A stretch of DNA of 64,000 nt from Rhabdophis nuchalis (taxonomy: Eukaryota > Chordata > Lepidosauria > Squamata > Natricidae). This document shows positions 7,366-53,739 of the stretch, in pieces; position 1 is the first letter of the stretch, and every line of letters begins with the position of its first letter. The position numbers and the translations under genes are program-made. Location: NCBI GenBank assembly GCA_039707465.1, contig CM077644.1, positions 143,066,962 through 143,130,961 of the forward strand, given 5' to 3'. Under the pieces are notes generated by a model. That model made no database searches, was not told the DNA's origin, and saw only the letters and a program-made list of their open reading frames with translations.

Positions 7366-7634
7366 ATGTTGCCCAGGGGTGCGTTACTGCCGGTTCGCAA
7401 CCCGCATGCCAGATGTGTGCAGTGCACGTGTGCGCTGTTCAATATAAATTGTTCTTTGCGCATGCACAGAACAATTTACAATGAACTGCACGCGCAGTCA
7501 CTAAAATCTAAAATGGCGGCGGCCTAGTGGCAGTGAGGGAACTGGTTTGGGGGGGGTGTGGCAGGCCTGGGTCACTGCCAGTTCTGTGACCCAGGCCTGA
7601 ATTCCACTAACGGCTCAGCTGAACCGGGTCAAAC

Positions 7635-8384
7635 CAGTAGCGTAGCGTGGGTTGTCAGCACCCGGGGCAAGGCAAGTAATTTGCGCCCCCTGGTGGAGCA
7701 CGGCAGGACGACCCGGACAGGGCCCCGGGTGTCCGGGAAGCGGGTAGGCGCCTTGGTCATGGTGGTGAGCCGGGTACTGATCTGGTTGGGTGTCCGAGAA
7801 GCGGGGGCAGCGGCGGCGGCGTCCGTGCCGGGGGAGGCGGTGAGCTCCCCGCTCTTGGGCGGCGTGGTGGGCTGCTTGGAAAGGAAGAAGGGGTCCTGCT
7901 CGATGCCTTTGGAATCCATGAGCTCGGTGGGCAGGTACTCTTGCACGGACCCCACCACGATCCACTTGAGCAGCATCAGGCTGAGCCCCAGGCCCACGAA
8001 GCCGATGAAGAGGGGCACGACGCAGAGCCACGTCTGCTGTCGGTTCCACACTAGGCAGTCGCCGCAGCGCACCTCCCGCCCCGCTGCCTCGGGCCCTCCA
8101 TCGCCTGCCGCAGGGGCCCCGCCCGCCGCCACCCCCTCCTCGGCAGCGGCTGCGGCACCCGGCGGCGAGGCGACCCCTTCGCTCATCTTTCTCGGTGCCT
8201 TTCTAGCCCTCCCCCGGGGGGAAGCAGCAGCATCGAGGACGGGGAGGGTGCAGCATGCGGAGCGGCGGGGAAGCGAGAAACGGGAAGGGGGGAGAGGAGG
8301 GGTGCAGGAAGATCCGACGGCGCCCCCCCAGATGTTGCGCCCGGTGCGGCCGGGCCCCCCTGCACCCCCCACGCTACGCCTCTG
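7635..8384. mobile_element. Nested hAT-like element carrying an NRG3 exon fragment
   Basis: Ends are CAGTAGCGTAGCGTGGG and the complement of CAGAGGCGTAGCGTGGG (15 of 17 match). The 8-bp duplication GGTCAAAC is exact at 7627-7634 and 8385-8392. Roughly 65-75 bp at each end look like transposon. The GC-rich middle, about 7700-8310, is host-gene sequence from NRG3. No transposase is seen, so it must have moved in trans. This fits a transposon that has captured a gene fragment (Pack-type). Confidence 0.9.
7713..8186 (-). pseudogene. NRG3: Captured fragment of neuregulin 3 first coding exon
   Basis: The ATG is at 8184-8186 and the frame stays open leftwards for about 158 matching residues. It starts MSEGVASPPG, then an Ala/Gly-rich stretch, then the strongly conserved block WNRQQTWLCVVPLFIGF leading into a hydrophobic segment (residues about 53-79), LLKWIVVGSV, DPFFLSK, and ISTRLTTMTKAPTRFP. 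This is the N-terminal cytoplasmic part, internal membrane segment and start of the Ser/Thr-rich ectodomain of NRG3 as known in vertebrates. The EGF domain is not present. About 120 bp upstream of the ATG may be captured 5' UTR. No stop or frameshift was found, which suggests recent capture. I call it a pseudogene fragment because it lacks the receptor-binding domain and lies inside a transposon. Confidence 0.88.
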
Positions 8385-8511
8385 GGTCAAACTGGCAGCA
8401 ATCCACCTCTGATGTTGCCTCTGATGAAGGCCCTGGTTGGTACGGTAATAAATAGGAAACACCAACTAGTCTTTTGAAGGCTCATAACAATTCTCCCTTT
8501 TCTTACATTAG

Positions 8512-8699
8512 GATGGAGAAGAAACATTTAACCGTGCAAAGCTTCTGAATATAGGCTTCACAGAAGCTTTGAAAGAATATGATTATGACTGCTTTGTATT
8601 TAGTGATGTTGACCTAATCCCGATGGATGACAGAAATATCTATAAGTGTTACGACCAGCCCAGGCACCTCTCTGTATCTATGGATAAATTTGGATTTCG
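8512..8699 (+). CDS. B4GALT1: B4GALT1 exon 3 (188 bp)
   Basis: The acceptor is a pyrimidine-rich tract ending in ATTAG at 8511, and the donor is GTAAG at 8700. The reading frame starts at the first base and ends with two bases of an Arg codon. It encodes DGEETFNRAKLLNIGF onwards, including FSDVDLIPMDD, where the DVD motif binds Mn2+ and UDP-galactose. A nested transposon with its target duplication ends at 8419, so only 92 bp of older intron sequence lies between it and this exon. Confidence 0.95.
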
Positions 8700-38036: not shown

Positions 38037-40052
38037 TGACTTCCGCTTCCGCCCTCCAACGGCGACGGATGGGTCCCTGACTCGTCCGCCGCTTTGTCCT
38101 TTTTTCTGCCCCCCGACGGGGGCGAGACGCCCCATCCTGGGGGTCTTCCGTAGGGTTGGCTTGCTGGGGTCGTTCTCTCCCCACTGCGGTGGGAAAGCGA
38201 CCCTTGTCTTCAGCCTAGGTGAGGAAAGGCTGGCTGCGGGGGGGAGACGCCTGTCTCCGCCTTCGCCAATGGAGATCGGAAAAGCTTTTTAATTGTGAAG
38301 AGAGCCGGACGTTCGGGTCGAAAGGCTCTCCCGAGGCTCGGCTGCAAGGCGAAGAGTGAGTGTATTTTTATTTGCTATTTTATCTCCGATGGCAGCGCTG
38401 GACTAAAAAGCTTGGAGGGGGGTGTTTTTTTGTTAAAACCCCCCTCGGATTTAAAGCGGCTCTTTGAAATGGCTCCTCATTCCGAGGAACGGGTTTTTTT
38501 TCTATGCGGTTTGCCTGGAACTTAGTGAAAGCAAGTGAAAGTGATTTGCGGCTTGCAACAATGTTTCTAAGTTCGATTGGCTTGCTACAATTTTTTTTTC
38601 TTTGTTACTCTCACCGGCTGGCTCCCAGCTTGGGCGGTGGAAGATGGCTTCTCTCTGCTCCTGAATGACTATTGTATTTATGGAAAATTACCAGCATCTC
38701 CTTGTGATTTGGACTTCCTCTTGCTATCAATGAAGAATTTTTTTGGATTAATTGATTCCTTGTCTGGAGTGCCTTTTTTACTATAACTATTGATTTGGAA
38801 AAGTGTTTCTCTTCTGGTTTCTGAACTTTTTATAACCCTGATTTGAAACTTTTACCTCCTGATTTGCCTCAGCGGCCCCACCCAAAAAACGCCATCTTAG
38901 TGGCACTGACTTTAACAGCCAACCATGGCACAAAAATCAGAATTGGCAGGTTTGGAACAAAGATTGTCTTCTCTGGAATCTGTTATACAAACTTTGGTGC
39001 AGGAAATTAAAGCCCAGAGAGAAGAAAATAACAACTTTAAGAAGGAACTCTTGGAAACTCGGAAGCAAGTGCAGGAGAATACACAGAAGACTGAAGATCT
39101 GGAAGGGGGGCTAATTGAGGCAAAGGGAGAGCTTAAAAATGTTAACAGTGAGGTGGGGGAACTAACTGGGCATATGTCTAGGATGGACTTTGAAAGGATG
39201 TCATATTTTTTAAGATTTCAGAATATTTCTGAAGAATCTGGTGAATGCCTGCCTGAACTCATGAGCACAATTTTAGCAGACTATTTACATAAACCTAAAG
39301 ATGAGATCAGGGGGGACATTGACCTAGTCTACAGAATAAACTCAGCATATGCCAGGATAAATGAAGTACCCAGAGAGATACACATTAAATTTGTTAGAAG
39401 GTCAACCAGGGAGGGAATTTTGAGGGCGCAGAGAGGGGGTCCTTTAATTTACCAACAAAAGGTGGTCGTTATCTTGAAGCAGGTCCCAAAAAAAATTAGA
39501 GAAATGAGAAGGAAATTTTCCTTCTTATCCAAAAAATTGTTTGACCACGGGATTTGGTTCAAGTGGGCGATGCCCGAAGGGATGCTGGTGTTCTGGGAAG
39601 GAGGAAGAGTGAAGATTAAAACAGTTGCTGAGGCGGAAGCCTTTCTTAAAAAACATTCCTCTGTCCTGGGGGAAGATCCAGGGGGGGCAGAGGGGGCCAC
39701 GGCCCCGCCCACTGGGGGCCAGGTGGGAGGAAAAGAAGATACAATAGCCAAGAGACTTAGATCAAAAAATGATTTTGCTTGTTTTTCTTTTTTTTTACTA
39801 ACTTTTTTTTAATTCCTTTTGTACCAGGATGTTTGTACATGTCTGCCATCTGAGAATTGGAAATGTATTATGTATTCACTTGTCTTTATCTTGTAGTATT
39901 TTTTCGGATAAATTTCTTTACTATTGTTTTATTATGTAGCCCGGGATGGGCCAAGGACTCTGACGCAAAGGTTCTCAAAATGTTTCTGTAACCCTTACCT
40001 TACCCTCTAGAAAATTGTTAAAACTCAATAAAACTTTAAAAAAAAAAAAAAA
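38037..40052 (+). mobile_element. HAL1-like retrotransposon copy 1 (L1-type ORF1 only)
   Basis: A 2.0-kb unit: GC-rich 5' UTR (38037-38924), one ORF, a 226-bp 3' UTR, AATAAA at 40027, and a poly(A) tail to 40052. The flanking duplication AAAATCAGAAGCTG occurs at 38023-38036 and 40049-40062 (some A's shared with the tail). There is no ORF2: the 3' end follows ORF1 directly. This is the half-L1 layout known from mammalian HAL1 elements and implies mobilisation by another L1's enzymes. Confidence 0.88.
38925..39812 (+). CDS. L1 ORF1p-like RNA-binding protein
   Basis: A 295-residue protein with a strong start context (AACCATGG). Residues about 5-90 form a heptad-rich coiled coil (LEQRLSSLESVIQTLVQEI). 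Next is a short RRM-like strand YFLRFQNISE, then a C-terminal domain with IHIKFVRRSTREGILRA and WFKWAMPEGMLVFWEGG. This order is that of L1 ORF1p, an RNA-binding trimeric chaperone. The last 14 residues (FACFSFFLLTFF end) are probably not native: copy 2 stops after RLRSQK, and one extra A in an A-run here shifts past that stop. Apart from that the frame is intact. Function as a trans-acting protein is inferred from the family. Confidence 0.85.
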   Translation: MAQKSELAGLEQRLSSLESVIQTLVQEIKAQREENNNFKKELLETRKQVQENTQKTEDLEGGLIEAKGELKNVNSEVGELTGHMSRMDFERMSYFLRFQNISEESGECLPELMSTILADYLHKPKDEIRGDIDLVYRINSAYARINEVPREIHIKFVRRSTREGILRAQRGGPLIYQQKVVVILKQVPKKIREMRRKFSFLSKKLFDHGIWFKWAMPEGMLVFWEGGRVKIKTVAEAEAFLKKHSSVLGEDPGGAEGATAPPTGGQVGGKEDTIAKRLRSKNDFACFSFFLLTFF

Positions 40053-40226
40053 TCAGAAGCTGCAATTGATCCAGAATGCAACAACATGACAATTAATGAG
40101 TGAACCTCAGTATGTCTATATAACATCACTGCTGTGTGATTAGCATCGGCTCTCAAGTATGCATGTAGGTGAAATCCCAAAATTCATTTTTAAAACTAAT
40201 TATTTTTATATTGGGCCCAAATGGAT

Positions 40227-40498
40227 CAGAGGTGGGTTGCTCCCAGTTTGGCCCAGTTTGGCCGAACGGGTAGTGGAATTCAGGCCTGGGTTGCAGAACC
40301 GGCAGTGACCCAGGCCTGCCATACCCCCAGTCGGTTCCCTCGCCGCCATTGGGTCACCGCCATTTTGGTTTTTAGTGAATGTGCGTGCACAGTTCGCTGT
40401 AAATTGTTCTGTGCATGCGCAAAGAACAATTTACATTGAACAGCGCATGTGCGCAGGGGTTGCGAACCGGTAGTAAAACCAGCAGCAATCCACCCCTG
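40227..40498. mobile_element. hAT MITE, relative of the outer element at 7374
   Basis: Starts CAGAGGTGGGTTGCTCCC, ends GCAGCAATCCACCCCTG, exact duplication AAATGGAT at 40219-40226 and 40499-40506. Contains TGCGCAAAGAACAATTTACA as in the 7374 element. It gives the empty length of that family, 272 bp. Confidence 0.93.
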
Positions 40499-46039: not shown

Positions 46040-47659
46040 GGGGAGGCAGAGAAAGTAACATCCGACTTTAACTATTGAAAAAGTGAAAGTATTACCATAT
46101 ATGGAATTGCGGTGGAAACATTGTATCTGAGGCTTGTAGCAGCAGAAATGGATTGATACTAATTCTTCACGACCGCCAAAGAGGCGGAAAAATGGCGCTT
46201 CTTTGTTCTCAGCAAGAAACTTTCTCTTTTGAAATGTGAACATTCCTTCAATTTAATAAGACTCTAAAATTTATACACAAGCCAACTCAAGTGACTCTCA
46301 GAATTTCTCCCATTGTGTGCCTTCTTTTTTATTGGATTGTATTTGTAGAAATTTTCTTTCTGGACTTTATACAAGTTGTACTTTAAATTTGGACACAGAC
46401 TTTCCCTTTTCTTCGACCTCACAGATTGCTCACCCACCAGACGCCATCTTTTACACAAAAACTTAAAACTTTCACTATGGCAGCAAGAAAGCCTCCATCT
46501 GGCAAATCTTGGTCTGCGCCAGCTTCTACGAAAGCCAGTCCGACTCCACAGCAATCCAAAATCACCACAATGTTACAAAAAGAAGCGGGTGGAGAGGACA
46601 CTCAACAATCATCAATTGAGGAAACTCTTCAAAACATAATGAAAGAAATAAAAGAAATACGCAGGGACATGATAAGTTCAAGATTGGAGCTTCTGGAAAC
46701 GCAGAGAGCATTAGCGGAAAACAAACAAAAAATTGATGGGCTGGAGGGGGGGGCAGCCAAGGTGAGGGAGGAGGTGAGGGAAGCATGAAAAGAAATAGTT
46801 TGGAAATTGGTTATATGTCTAGAATGGATTTTGAAAGAATGTCTTATTTTTTAAGGTTTCAAAACGTTTCCGAGTCAGATTCAGAAAATTTAAGAGATTT
46901 AATGTCTACAATTTTAGCAGACTACACTAAAAAGAACAAAGAATATATCTGGGGGGGACATTGACCTGATTTATAGAATTAATTCAGCATATGCCAGAAT
47001 AAATGATGTACCCAGAGAGATACACATCAAATTTGTAAGAAGGTCAATAAGGGATGAGATTCTGAGAGCACAGAGAGATGGCCCATTGATATATCAGCAG
47101 AAAGAAATTGCTATTTTGAAGCAGATCCTGAAAAAGATTCGTGAGATTAGAAGGAAATATTCCTTCCTATCCAAAAAGCTGTATAAAAAGGGGGTGTGGT
47201 TCAAATGGTCAATGCCTGAAGGAATGTTGGTGTTCTGGGAGGGGGGAAGAGTAAGAATCAAAACAGTCGAAGAGGCAGAAGCCTTTCTTAAAAAACACTC
47301 CTCAATCCTGGAGGACGAAAATGGGGGAGTGAGAGGGGCCATGGCTCCGCCCACTGGCGGGAAGGAAGAAGAAGACACGATAGCAAAAAGACTCAGATCA
47401 CAAAAATGATTTTTTCTTTTATACATTGTAATTCCTAATGGATGCTAATAGAAACAAATGATTGATTGCATGGAATTTATGATATGATATGTATGTATCT
47501 CTTTCCACCTTATATTGAAAGAATTTTGTATGAAGTCTCGGAGGCGGCCATCACCTCCGACATGGAAGCCCTAAAATATTTCTATTCATATCCTATATAC
47601 CCTTTTTCCCTTTAAAAATTTGTAAAACCAATAAAATTGATGTTATAAAAAAAAAAAAA
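46040..47659 (+). mobile_element. HAL1-like retrotransposon copy 2
   Basis: A 1.6-kb unit with a 17-bp exact duplication AGGAGATGGCAGAGCTT at 46023-46039 and 47659-47675, AATAAA near 47630 and a poly(A) tail. One decayed ORF1 and no ORF2. The ORF1 is clearly homologous to copy 1, but the 5' and 3' UTRs differ, so it is another subfamily. CGCCATCTT just before the ORF is shared with copy 1. Confidence 0.9.
46477..47409 (+). pseudogene. L1 ORF1p-like gene, broken by frameshifts
   Basis: It starts MAARKPPSGKSW and has the coiled-coil region (EETLQNIMKEIKEIRRDM). The first frame ends at a stop after VREEVREA (46788). The next part (MSRMDFERMSYFLRFQNVSE) is in another frame and breaks at a run of seven G's near 46951. 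The rest (GDIDLIYRINSAYARIN to AKRLRSQK) runs to the stop at 47407-47409 in a third frame. The same domains as copy 1 are present, so it once encoded a full ORF1p. Confidence 0.85.
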
Positions 47660-47958: not shown

Positions 47959-50928
47959 CTATCCTAGGCCGGCTTGTTGGAATAGATACGTCTTAAGACG
48001 TTGGCGGAAGAGGCGGAGGTCCAAGATAGTGCGAAGGTCGGGGGGTAGGTCGTTCCAGAGGGCCGGGCCCGCCACAGAGAAGGCCCTTCCCCTGGGTGTC
48101 GCCAGCCGGCATTGCCCCGCTGACGGCACCCGGAGAAGACCCTCTCTGTGGGAGCGGATCGGACGAAGGGATGTATGGGGCAGGAGACGGTCTCGTATAT
48201 AGCTAGGCCCCGAGCCATGGAGCGATTTAAAGATGGTCGTCAGCACCTTGAAGCGCACTCGAAAGGCCACAGGCAGCCAGTGCAGCTCGCGCAGGAGAGG
48301 TGTTACGTGGGTTTGCCTTGAGGCACCCATAATCACCCGCGCCGCCGCATTCTGTACTAACTGTAGCTTTCGAGTGCACCTCAAGGGGAGCCCCATGTAG
48401 AGAGCGTTACAGTAATCCAGCCGGGATGTCACAAGCGCTTGAGTGACTGTACGAAGGGCTCCCCGGTCCAGTAAGGGGCGCAACTGGTGTATCAGGCGTA
48501 CCTGATAGAACGCCCCCCTGGCCACGGCCGTCACATGGTCCTCCATGGACAGCCGCGAATCCAGGAGGACACCCAAGTTGCGCGCCCTCTCCACAGGGGC
48601 CAGTTGTTCGCCCCCAATGGCCAGTGTTGGACTTATCTGGCTGAACCGGGGTGCCGGAAACCACAGCCACTCGGTCTTGGACGGGTTGAGTTTGAGTTTG
48701 TTACTACCCATCCAGATCCGTACGGCCTCCAGACACCGGGACAGCACCTCGACGGCATCGTTGGGGTGGTTTGGGGTGGATATGTACAACTGAGTGCCAT
48801 CAGCGTACAGATGGTATTCCACCCCAAAACCACGGATGATCTCGCCCAGCGGCTTCATGTAGGTGTTAAACAGGAGTGGCGAGAGGACCGACCCCTGAGG
48901 GACCCCACATGTGAGTGGCCTCGGGGACGACCTCTGCCTTCCTGCCAACACCCATTGCGACCGACCAGAGAGGTAAGACGAGAACCACCGTAGGACGGTG
49001 CCTCTCAGCCCCAACCCCCCCAATCAGTGCAATAAGATACCATGGTCGATGGTATCAAAAGCCGCTGAGAGGTCTAATAGGACAAGGATAGAGGAACAAC
49101 CACTATCCCGTGCCCTCCAGAGATCATCTACCAACGCGACCAATGCCGTTTCGGTGCTGTGACCAGGCCGGAAGCCGGACTGGCGCGGGTCTAGATAATC
49201 AACTTCCTCCAGATGTCGGGGAAACTGTTGAGCCACCACACTCTCAACAACCTTCACTAAAAAGTGAAGGTTGGAGACGGGACGATAGTTCTCTAATAAA
49301 GCTGGATCCAGGGATGGTTTCTTGAGGAGGGGCCTCACCACCGCCTCTTTCAAAACGGTGGGCAAGTGCCCCTCACTCAGAGATGAATTCACAATGCCCT
49401 GGAGTCAGCCTCGTGTCACCTCCCAGGATGCCAGTACAAGCCAGGAGGGACACGGGTCCAATAAACATGTGGTGGCTCTAAGGTTCCTCCGCAACCTGTC
49501 CATATCCTCGGTAGTAACAAAGTCAAACTCCTCCCAAGGTGTAATCTCAAGACCAACGCTGGACGCCTCGACTGGACCACAAGTGGAGGGCAACTCGTTC
49601 CGAATCTGAGTGATTTTGTTCTGGAGGAATACTCCAAATTCCTCTGCTCGACCCTGCAGAGGGGCTTCCCGCGGCCTCAGATGAAGGAGAGAGCAGGTCA
49701 CCCCAAACAGGGCGGCAGGGCGGTTTTCCGCGGACGCGATAAGAGTAGCACAATACTCACGTTTGGCCACTCTTAGCGCCACTAAGTAAGTCCTAATATG
49801 GTCTCTCACTAGTGTTCGGTCAGATTCGGATCGAGAAGATCTCCACCTACTCTCTAGGCGTCTCTTGCGGCATTTCATCTCCCGAAGCTCCTCGGTAAAC
49901 CAAGGAGCCTGGGTGACTCGGCGCCGCATGAGAGGCCGCAAGGGCGCAACTCGGTCCAAGGCCCCCGTGGCCGCACTATACCATGCGGCCACTAGATCCT
50001 CAGTCGAGCCACGGGGCAGGGACACAGGTATTGGCCCAAGCTCCCTCTGGAACCTTTCCGGGTCCATCAGGCGCCTGGGGCGGAACCAACTCGGTGTCTC
50101 TGGTTCCGCCTCCCCGCGGTGGGGTGTGACGGTTGGAAAGTCTATCCGAAGGAGAGAGTGATCTGTCCATGACAAGGGTAAGATGACTAAATCCCCTGTT
50201 CCGAGATCACTAATTCAGTGTCCAGAGACAAAAATCAGATCCAGCGTGTGTCCTCCCTCGTGAGTGGGGCCCTGAACTACTTGGGTCAGGTCCATGGCCG
50301 TCATGGAAGCCATGAACTCCCGAGCCACCTCGGATGTTTCGCCCGCCGACGGCAGGTTGAAGTCCCCCATGACTATAAGTCTGGGGGTCTCCACCGCCAT
50401 CGCGGCGATCACCTCGAGTAGCTCGGGCAGGGCTGCTGTTACATAGCGGGGAGCCAGGTATACAACTAGCAAGCCCAACTGCCTCCCTAGGCCCCATTTC
50501 ACGAAGAGGGACTCACAACCGGTCGTCTGAGGCACAGTTGTCTCCTTCGGCTCCAGACTTTCCTTAACAATAACCGCCACCCCCCCACCCCTGCCGAGGG
50601 CCCTGGGCTGATGAAAAGCACGGTAGCCTGGTGGGCACATTTCCACGAGGGGTAAACCCCCCTCGGGGCCCAACCAGGTCTCCGTAATTCCCACCAGGTC
50701 CGGGTCCCCCTCTGACACGAGGTCATTTATGAGGGGGGCTTTATTCACCACGGACCTGGCGTTGCAGAACATCAGCCTGGGACCCCGGCTCTGTAGTCCC
50801 TGACCGCCTAGCCCACGAGCGGAGTACAGGGGGTTGGGGCAAGCGACCGCTCGTAACCAGCGACCACGAGCCTCCAACCCATGATGGACATCCTGTCTCC
50901 CGCCGCCCCTGCCCCTCCCCAAGACCAA
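47959..50928 (-). pseudogene. LINE ORF2: endonuclease and reverse transcriptase, inactivated
   Basis: One reading frame of 990 codons with three in-frame TGA stops (50213-50215, 49405-49407 and 49024-49026 areas) and no frameshift. Order from the N side: APE-type endonuclease (LMFCNARSV, DLVGITETWLG, VMGDFNLPSAG), a linker, then reverse transcriptase ([53 protein letters not shown]). The catalytic block reads YADG where the family has YADD. The C-terminal part has LLRELHWLPVAFRVRFKVL. Each TGA fits decay of CGA at a CpG site. The listed start at 50928 is a TTG and the true start is probably upstream. The missing Asp alone should abolish polymerase activity. Confidence 0.9.
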
Positions 50929-51797
50929 TCGAATGGGGCGGCCCTCAACAGAGACGACCCCCGATCCCCCCTCCCTAGTGGACCCCTCCTTTATCCTACT
51001 TCCGCCGGCCGGCCCTATATCTTGGCCCCTCTCTGACTGAATGAACCCTCCCCCCTCCCCAGAACCCCTTAAAAGCCTAATTAAAAATTTGTTTAAAAAC
51101 CCCCTAAGTCCGCGCTTCGCCCACCTCTCTGGATTAATCCATCCCTCATAGAGGTGGGCCCTTGATAAACCCAGGGGCCAAACCTGCGAGAGGGGAACCT
51201 CCCGCAGGGAGAGGAGATCCGTCCTTGAGTACAGCTGGGTGGTGAATATTTACAAGGGACCCATAATGGCCATAAAGGTAAAGGGAGGAAAATCGCCTAG
51301 ATATTTACAGCAAGATAAAACCAGTTCAGAGAGGAGATGTTTTAAATAGATAAATAAATAAATAGGGGGGCATTTGTCAGCTAAAGCCAGGGGGGGGGAA
51401 GGATAGAAGTCAGGTCACCATGTGGTGGAGATAGTCCCCACAGTTCAGAGTCAGTTTAGCCGGCAGGCTCCGCCACGCAATTTGATGGTATGTTGCGTGG
51501 CCCAAAACGATCTTCACCTCAGCCCGTTTTCCACTCCACTCCTTCATCCGGTCTGGGTGGGCATCGTGCAAGCCGATGGTACGTTGCACGGATGGAAGTT
51601 GTTTCACTTAGTCCAGGCCGGCCTGCCTCTTCCCTGTCCGGGCACCCCTCCACCGCGTGGGTCCCCCTCCCTACGTCACCCTGCAACTTCCTCCTGTTGT
51701 AGCTTGGTTTCTCCCAGGCCCCACCAACGTCTCTCTGCAGCTGGGCCCACAGGGTCGAAATGATGTTAAAGTAGCAGTAGGCAGATTGTTTGTTAGA

Positions 51798-52670
51798 CCA
51801 ACCCCCATTAGATGGACATTGGGGGCTGGTTCTTCTGTGCCATCTGCGCCTCCTTCTGCCCCATGGCACCTCGCGGGGGCCGGAATAATCCGGACTAGTC
51901 CAGGCCAGAACCAAGGCCAGGCAGGTCGAAACAGTCGCACTGACCTCTCTGGCCTCACTCTGCAGCACCACTCGCCTGTTGTGCCAGCCCCCACAGATGG
52001 TACATAGGGGCTGGCAGTATATTCCGAGGCCGGGCAGGCCGTACTCCACCCCTCCGCCGCTCGCCTATTTCGCCAGCCCCACAGATGATGCACGGGGCTG
52101 GCAGAATTTTCCGAGGCCGAGCAGGCCGCCTTCCGCCGCTCGCCTATTACGCCAGCCCCACAGATGATACTCGGGGCTGGCAGTATTTTCCGGGGCCGAG
52201 CAGGCTGCGCTGGGGCCGGGCAGGCCATGTTGGGGCCGGACAGGCCACGCTGGGGCCGGGCAGGCTCGCGGTGAAACCCGGTGAAACCCGGCAGGCTCGC
52301 GGTGTCCTCCGAGTCCTCCGGGGCGAGCAGATGGTGTCTACCAGGGCCGGGCATGCCGCGCCAGCCGCCGGTCGCAAAGGCCCCAACCCCCGCCATTCCG
52401 CGGTTTCGCCAGCCCCTCCGATGGAACTCTGGGGCTGGCGGTATCTTCTGGGGCCGAGCAGGCCACGCCGGCCGCGCCAGCCGCATCGGCCCGGCTGCGT
52501 TTTTCCGGCCCGGTCGCCCGATCGCTCCGCCGCCCCGCCGATCGCCTCTGCCGCCCGTTGCCGCCCGTTGCCCCCAAGGCACCTCACGGGGCTGAAACAG
52601 GCCCTTCCTGACGACGGGGCACAATACTTGCCGAACCAGCCCCTTTAGATGGAAAATAGGGGCTGGTGGC
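51798..52670 (-). repeat. Six hairpin-bearing repeat units in the LINE 5' UTR
   Basis: CCAGCCCC (or CCAACCCCC), 13-17 bases containing GATG, then GGGGCTGG, starting near 51798, 51984, 52073, 52152, 52409 and 52636. The middle units are 79-89 bp apart and share flanks such as TTCCGAGGCCGAGCAGGC. They resemble promoter monomers in layout. Confidence 0.8.
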
Positions 52671-52799
52671 GTCCTCCGGGGGCCGAAAAGGCCCTTGTCT
52701 CCATGCTGCGCTCAGGAGATCGCCATCTTCCTTCGCGCCTGCGCAGACCAGACTGCGCAGAAACATAATAATTTCATTATTAAAAGGGGAAAAGGCCCC

Positions 52800-53739
52800 T
52801 GAGCTGGTTTAACCTACTCACTTGCTAATTGCTACTTTCAAAATCAAAGTACCTATTTTATGTAGAATGTAATAAAAAAGTAAATAAATAAAGCATCGAC
52901 ATTAAGAGTGGTGTTAAAATGATGGTTTCCTATTAAAAACCTTTATTATTGTGTACATTCAATATACAGTATATCACAGAAGTGAGCATACCTCCTCATA
53001 TTTTGTAAATATTTAAGTATATCTTGTCAGCAGTTTAGAAATTAATGGCTTTATGTTATGTTATTTTGAGGAGACAGCACATTTATACTGTTATACAAAC
53101 TGTATACTCACTACTTTACATTGTAGCCATATATATAGTAAATATATATTGGTATCTTTATTATATACCGGTACTCGCAACAGGACAAGAGGGAAGAAAG
53201 TTACATGAACCAAAGGAAGAGAATGGAAAATCAAATGCAATGCAGAATAACAAAGACAGTTTGAAAGAACCCTGGCTAAGGCATTGTTTGTTTGTGATAA
53301 TTATAAAAAAGGAAGTTTATTTTTCAAACCTGTGGTTTTGTGGCATACCAAATGCAAATAAACTATTGAAATACCTGTTCTTATTTGTTAACTGTGCAGT
53401 TAATTTCTCCTTGCGATAAACTTTTAAATTATTTCACCCAGTTCTTAGCTTTTTTTCCAAATATGTAGAGTTTCTTTTCTTCTTCACTATTTTCTTTTGT
53501 TTCTTTCGTCTTTTTTCCTTTGTTAAAGATGCCACTGTAGGCAACTCCACTGCATTTCAAATTATGTCCTGTCACCTCCCCTCTCCCCACTTTATAAAGG
53601 TGCAAAACAGTTAAAGCTATTTGGGAAGTAGAAGCAGAGCCCTGCTGATGACCTTGGCAGGAAGGAAGTGGTCTACATGTTTTCTGCATCTGCCTCCCCC
53701 TTGCTCATAACAATGCAGGGGTCTTTTTTCCTTCTGTGG
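52800..53739. other. AT-rich intergenic sequence
   Basis: No recognised element. Confidence 0.55.

Follow-up and report, generated by a model that had tools for sequence, protein, structure and literature searches.

Introduction

Transposons that take up the starts of host genes and amplify them are well known, as Pack-MULEs in plants and as Helitrons in bats. Pack-MULEs use a Mutator transposase, belong to a superfamily different from hAT, and have longer ends and 9–10 bp duplications; Helitrons make no target-site duplication. For animals, the part of the survey by Tan et al. 2021 available to us (PMC8277862) reports 370 Pack-TIRs from 100 genomes, 208 of them hAT cases. The available text gives four Pack-TIRs as multicopy and 56.9% as lying within 15 kb of the parent, and it infers transposition-independent gap repair for most single-copy cases. 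Its frog example is a 291-bp piece of the CAPSL 5' UTR captured by hAT-N8_XT, which moved with distinct duplications and is found on three chromosomes. High-GC capture is stated there for Pack-MULEs and for multicopy Pack-TIRs. In Myotis lucifugus, according to the available sections of a second report (PMC4778049), Helitrons captured the promoters of 15 genes and reached 4,690 copies; HelibatN3 took the NUBPL promoter with a few N-terminal codons. Helitron ends are given in the same sections as 5' TC and 3' CTRR, without inverted repeats.

The locus described here lies in a 64,000-nt stretch of snake DNA (the whole stretch analysed, called the window below). A 750-bp hAT element in it carries the 5' end of host NRG3. 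What appears new is that two NRG3 5'-end captures were amplified to more than 400 places within a single hAT family, which took up FEZF2 as well. The preliminary description of this locus had considered gene capture rarely documented for vertebrate hATs, which agrees poorly with the 208 hAT cases in animals, though so few Pack-TIRs are multicopy (PMC8277862, in the part available). In the open-licence literature, as far as its accessible text goes, we found no report of a Pack-hAT with NRG3 or of one from a snake, and no related work on the end sequences by title and abstract. The effect of hundreds of dispersed neuronal-gene 5' ends on NRG3 regulation becomes directly testable.

Results and Discussion

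The element and its insertion site

The element occupies 7635–8384, exactly as first reported, and consists of a 56 bp left end, 631 bp of NRG3 and a 63 bp right end. The features are as follows.

7431..7634, resuming at 8393-8413, no strand: older dispersed repeat hit by the insertion (84% match to 40225-40447)
7627..7634, no strand: target-site duplication GGTCAAAC, left copy (from the sequence)
7635..7690, plus strand: hAT left end with terminal inverted repeat, 56 bp (alignment edge against NRG3 and the transposase-bearing L089)
7691..8321, minus strand: NRG3 segment taken up by the element, 631 bp (differs from the parent C3 NRG3, L067/L048, at 14 of 631 positions)
7691..8186, minus strand: coding part of NRG3 exon 1, 165 codons without a stop, ATG at 8184-8186 (translation and protein matches)
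8187..8321, minus strand: NRG3 sequence 5' of the ATG, 135 bp (aligned to parent L048, base 814 to the ATG at 949)
8322..8384, plus strand: hAT right end with terminal inverted repeat, 63 bp (sequence comparison)
8385..8392, no strand: target-site duplication GGTCAAAC, right copy (from the sequence)
8515..8697, plus strand: exon of a B4GALT1-like gene, directly downstream of the insertion (tblastn, 46/61 residues identical)

The inverted ends and the 8-bp duplication of the preliminary description were both borne out. The ends CAGTAGCGTAGCGTGGG and CAGAGGCGTAGCGTGGG form a 17-bp inverted repeat with 15 of 17 bases matching, and GGTCAAAC stands in exact copies at 7627-7634 and 8385-8392. The G preceding each GGTCAAAC copy is also common to both sides, because the element ends in G. 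The consensus element has the ends CAGTGGCGTAGCGTGGG and CAGAGGCGTAGCGTGGG, short inverted repeats that start with CAG as in the hAT superfamily. Within the window, a 13-nt end motif with up to 1 mismatch was found just at the element's own two ends; at 3 mismatches it was found at 12 more places. When the flanks were rejoined without the element, they matched the repeat copy at 40225-40447 by 84% over 227 columns with 6 gap columns, none of them at the junction. As this copy aligns gap-free through the rejoined junction, the empty site is visible.

The element sits in the intron preceding the B4GALT1-like exon, about 120 bp before it, and its NRG3 segment is antisense to the B4GALT1-like gene (the tblastn query was a C-terminal part of human B4GALT1). 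Its GC content is 0.70 and its CpG observed/expected ratio 0.77, against 0.43 and 0.37 for the rest of the window. This copy encodes no transposase. Most likely it is a passive insertion in the B4GALT1-like intron. An inverted repeat at 7421-7502, with 39-nt arms that are 74% complementary, lies within or beside the host repeat to the left of the element.

The captured NRG3 segment and its parent

The minus-strand NRG3 reading from the ATG at 8184-8186 held up: it contains no stop, and its translation matched 136 proteins at E<=0.01 (best E 6.4e-88), the best named matches among the 120 listed being snake NRG3 (Pseudonaja, Protobothrops and Crotalus). Pfam and PDB searches with the fragment returned nothing useful. 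Two details of the first reading were amended. It had the first coding exon captured; the sequence is indeed from NRG3 exon 1, and it comprises only part of that exon (496 bp of coding sequence). It had also followed NRG3 as far as TKAPTRFP; the frame is NRG3 down to 7691, and its last open residues are transposon. All 13 matched proteins that were aligned depart from the window translation where the transposon starts. Because the capture edge falls inside exon 1, no NRG3 splice donor was captured.

An intact NRG3 exon 1, which had been looked for elsewhere as a check, was found at C3:111993511. The half of exon 1 that was not captured (query taken from Protobothrops protein P0004) gave this single genome match among 90 candidates, in an open frame of 332 codons. 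The parental exon 1 is single-copy and on a chromosome different from that of the window copy. Alignment to the parent exon gave sharp capture edges, with 14 differences and no length change over the 631 bp. The consensus of 40 copies is closer still, with 636 of 639 bases identical to the parent locus. Of the three differing bases, two are at the border with the hAT; the third, internal one is polymorphic among the copies, with the parental base in 19 of 40 including the window copy. A screen for ends of this hAT family found none in 19.7 kb around the parent, and apart from pieces of up to 35 bases nothing else there matched the element. As the founder was nearly identical to the living parent and many of the copies keep clean junctions, the capture step (edges, overlaps and orientation) is open to study.

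Copies of the element

The window's own genome (1.92 Gb, 348 contigs) was searched for copies. With the element as query, 40 near-full-length places and one 97-bp piece were obtained (40 of 558 candidates scored). These places are the window copy and 39 others at 91–97% identity, spread over many chromosomes. A pattern across the right junction, with up to 3 mismatches allowed, occurred at 54 genome places, and its reversed control at 0. Fifty-two of the 54, all read, belong to the same class (class G below), and the two 3-mismatch places are same-ended elements of another class, A. As junction patterns allow 3 mismatches, more decayed copies are missed by such counts.

Altogether 56 class G copies were read: the window copy, the 39 query matches and 16 from the right-junction pattern. 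The copy number is therefore at least 56, which agrees with the several same-ended copies foreseen at first. A sole copy joined to downstream NRG3 exons had been named in advance as fatal to a transposon capture; at least 56 copies and a separate parent were found. Perfect 8-bp duplications flank 50 of the 56, 49 of these being different, and 2 more copies match at 7 of 8 bases. One pair, L013 and L022, shares one duplication as well as its flanks and is likely a segmental copy. The other four copies have no duplication at the expected place, with 6, 1, 0 and 0 of 8 bases matching; among these, L041 has a match of 7 bp once its edge is shifted. In L014 (C4:79374640-79376189) a further piece of the element's first 97 bp stands directly before the class G copy, and no recognisable duplication was seen there.

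The same-ended hAT family and its transposase

A 30-nt piece of the left end occurred at 2,249 genome places with up to 3 mismatches, and its control at 0. We sampled 36 carriers, the first in order of 100 listed, all on C1 (20 on the plus and 16 on the minus strand); they are exact matches to the 30-nt pattern with two class G places skipped, and so are not a random genome sample. A right end and a perfect 8-bp duplication were present in 31 of the 36; in the other five, the stretch that was read did not show a right end. The 8-bp target-site duplication, a feature of the hAT superfamily, was thus found both in class G copies and in these carriers. Over its first 57 bp, the class G consensus is matched at 57 positions by 30 carriers and at 56 by six, the carriers having been chosen by an exact 30-nt match inside those 57 bp. 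The first 15 complete carriers were compared together with the NRG3 consensus and a class A copy. Elements from different classes had about 57–90 bp in common at the left and 52–99 bp at the right, and their interiors differed. The exceptions were L071, which shares NRG3 with class G, and L070 and L075, which share about 690 bp.

The carriers were sorted by judgement from shared sequence into transposase-type and deleted-looking forms (8), class A (7), class B (7), class C (8), a second NRG3 version (3), FEZF2 (1), a FEZF2-side derivative (1) and class F (1). Same-ended elements that lack the NRG3 segment of the window copy, another check proposed at the outset, are therefore present in the sample. 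The elements referred to by class are listed here.

Class A: L073, L077, L080, L081, L082, L099, L102, L065, L066
Class B: L076, L078, L079, L084, L086, L096, L106
Class C, short elements: L072, L088, L094, L108
Class F: L083

The interiors of classes A and B are CpG-rich, with GC about 0.7. The interiors of classes A, B and F look CpG-rich in the manner of further captured CpG islands and are candidates for such. L086 of class B is interrupted by what appears to be an element of CR1 type. For class C, a capture reading was dropped, as the class is also present in long elements, one of them (L085) with a Dimer_Tnp_hAT match in Pfam. The long same-ended elements L074/L091, L085/L092, L095 and L104 share their right part with the short class C elements, and the class C interior may be native hAT sequence. 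The duplication GTCTTAAG is found at both L072 and L094.

A putative source of the transposase is found among the relatives. L089 (3,396 bp) has the same ends, a perfect duplication and a minus-strand transposase frame. Transposase domains in L087/L089 were DUF4371 (E 5.7e-15) and Dimer_Tnp_hAT (E 6.7e-13), the Pfam check for such domains covering L087 and L085. The L089 frame is broken by one stop between stretches of 519 and 167 codons, so that this copy may be dead. A PDB search with the transposase piece gave nothing at E<=0.1.

A second NRG3 version

Three of the sampled carriers (L071, L098 and L105) contain NRG3 from L067 8050 to 7245 between the same hAT ends. This version has 715 bp upstream of the ATG (L067 7960), minus an internal deletion, plus 30 codons. 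The deletion leaves 134 bp unaligned and has 3 nt common to its edges. Its junction occurred at 371 genome places with up to 3 mismatches (reversed control 0), of which three were read.

The outer junctions of the two versions differ on both sides, in NRG3 as well as in hAT, and the versions overlap at L067 7825-8050. We favour two independent captures, as the junctions suggest. The two versions (at least 56 and about 371 copies) could instead be remains of one larger capture that deletions trimmed later. Such an origin would suit the same gene, the same orientation and the overlapping segment, and internal-deletion-like elements are common among the sampled carriers. We consider it the less likely origin, since all four outer junctions differ, which would need several deletions each sparing the ends, and since no carrier of the whole segment (L067 7245 to 8455) was present among the 36 sampled.

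A FEZF2 capture

In L070 (C1:8233617-8236617), an element of 1,769 bp starts at base 175, with the same hAT ends and a perfect duplication. Its minus strand encodes an interrupted FEZF2 N terminus, the reading of which matched 125 proteins at E<=0.001; the best of the 120 listed was Notechis FEZF2 at 87%. The interior has two full matches in the genome, L070 itself and C4:50091714 at 97%, and one short weak match. Just past the capture edge on C4 (L109), the next FEZF2 residues, 190-255, follow at 97% identity to Notechis, and no hAT end was found in this stretch. By sequence comparison, this is a FEZF2 5' end captured by the same hAT ends, with its parent at C4:50091714.

It is possible, although we lean slightly against it, that one hAT lineage repeatedly copied CpG-rich 5' ends from developmental genes: that of NRG3 twice, that of FEZF2, and likely those now inside class A, B and F elements. 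It would have spread these as separate subfamilies, and a substantial part of the roughly 2,200 members would then be mobile gene starts able to seed promoters or antisense RNA.

Age, mutation pattern and coding fate

The counts of divergence, frame and neutrality use 40 of the 56 class G copies. Mean divergence from the consensus was 1.85% and mean pairwise divergence 3.49%. The pairwise value is close to twice the consensus value, the pattern expected of a star-like burst. The data point to a recent burst that began with a single founder, nearly the same in sequence as present-day NRG3. The rate of difference is 5.1% at CpG sites and 0.93% at other sites. The NRG3 segment has 71 CpGs in the parent and 71 in the consensus; the 54 copies longer than 700 bp have a mean of 73 CpGs, against 82 in the consensus element. 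From decay that is neutral and falls mostly at CpG, we infer an absence of selection on the peptide and, with likelihood, methylation. In the germline, methylation would affect the copies and spare the parental island, and most class G copies are probably silenced in this way.

The captured frame could be in use, as a truncated NRG3 protein or as antisense or small RNA regulating NRG3, and be kept by selection. The ATG, the frame and the absence of stops over 156 codons are preserved in 26 of 40 copies. At 1.85% divergence, most copies are expected to be open anyway, and the substitution events (120 nonsynonymous, 66 synonymous and 3 stop) fit the neutral expectation of 0.608:0.372:0.02, in a test that is blind to regulatory RNA. 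The excess of differences at CpG sites also speaks against such use, which we regard as quite improbable. The preliminary description had further suggested that a mobile copy could spread an NRG3 promoter or give antisense RNA against NRG3; the way the copies have mutated speaks rather for neutral, probably methylated ones.

Origin of the element

We are highly confident that the window element is one of at least 56 nonautonomous hAT copies carrying 631 bp of host NRG3, likely acquired by template switching and likely moved by the transposase of relatives. The founder would have been created by microhomology-guided template switching into NRG3. The likely route, after Tan et al., is that NRG3 was copied into a broken or replicating hAT, which would then have spread by cut-and-paste. 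A hAT transposase of same-ended relatives presumably moves the NRG3 element.

The four outer capture junctions, compared by eye with the hAT of L089 and L070, show overlaps of 1, 2, 2 and 2 nt. At the right edge of the second capture, L071 alone has the 2-nt overlap; in L098 and L105 a different base stands in that position and nothing overlaps. Overlaps of 1–2 nt are near chance level. Relative to the left end, the gene runs antisense in each of the three captures read (NRG3 twice, FEZF2 once), and with so few cases this may be chance.

A plain hAT already in the intron might have been filled in place with NRG3 during gap repair. This route explains most animal Pack-TIRs according to Tan et al. 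(PMC8277862, in the part available), and short overlaps do occur at the capture junctions. The two junctions recur in at least 56 copies, whose sites show 49 different perfect duplications, and the parent is on another chromosome, which makes this route exceedingly improbable here. Filling in place is contradicted for the window copy by the shared junctions, and it may still describe the founder event. An assembly chimera or contamination, including artefactual flanking ends as the preliminary description had allowed for, can practically be dismissed, since separate copies with exact duplications lie on many chromosomes and the parent in the same genome is nearly identical.

Comparison with described systems

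Tan et al. (PMC8277862), in the available text, define a Pack-TIR by flanks of at least 10 bp of element ends around an interior of 100-5000 bp. Its parent lies elsewhere, is at least 90% identical with a length ratio of 80-120%, and is free of transposons within 100 bp. The element studied here has ends of 56 and 63 bp around 631 bp, and its parent differs at 14 of 631 positions without a length change. As in the animal Pack-hATs of that text, hAT ends surround non-transposon DNA with one unambiguous parent and short microhomology. Animal Pack-TIRs are there nearly all single-copy and often near the parent, whereas at least 56 and about 371 places were found here and the parent of the window copy is on another chromosome. 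Unlike the Pack-TIRs described, this one hAT family captured two genes.

The bat Helitrons resemble the NRG3 hAT, as far as the available sections on them go, in that one transposon group captured several gene starts and amplified them. They differ in that they are rolling-circle elements, whereas the NRG3 element belongs to the cut-and-paste hATs, has 8-bp duplications and lacks a captured splice donor. Helitron capture is ruled out by these duplications and by the CAG...CTG inverted ends. Plant Pack-MULEs likewise capture gene fragments between inverted ends; a Pack-MULE is ruled out by the 8-bp duplications and the hAT transposase in a same-ended relative. Ssk-FB4 of Drosophila, as outlined in the available text of PMC8277862, is similarly a multicopy capture of a gene and its upstream part with distinct duplications, but it is known there from three loci, is likely a MULE and possibly encodes a functional protein. 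By the features tested, the NRG3 hAT family is a Pack-hAT, amplified more like the bat Helitrons.

Other features of the window

Two related open frames, at 38916-39812 and 46387-47409, are present elsewhere in the window and resemble LINE-1 ORF1. Long minus-strand frames at 47959-51249 presumably belong to a CR1-type retrotransposon. The most CpG-rich stretch of the window lies at 51751-52950, with a CpG observed/expected ratio of about 0.76-0.94.
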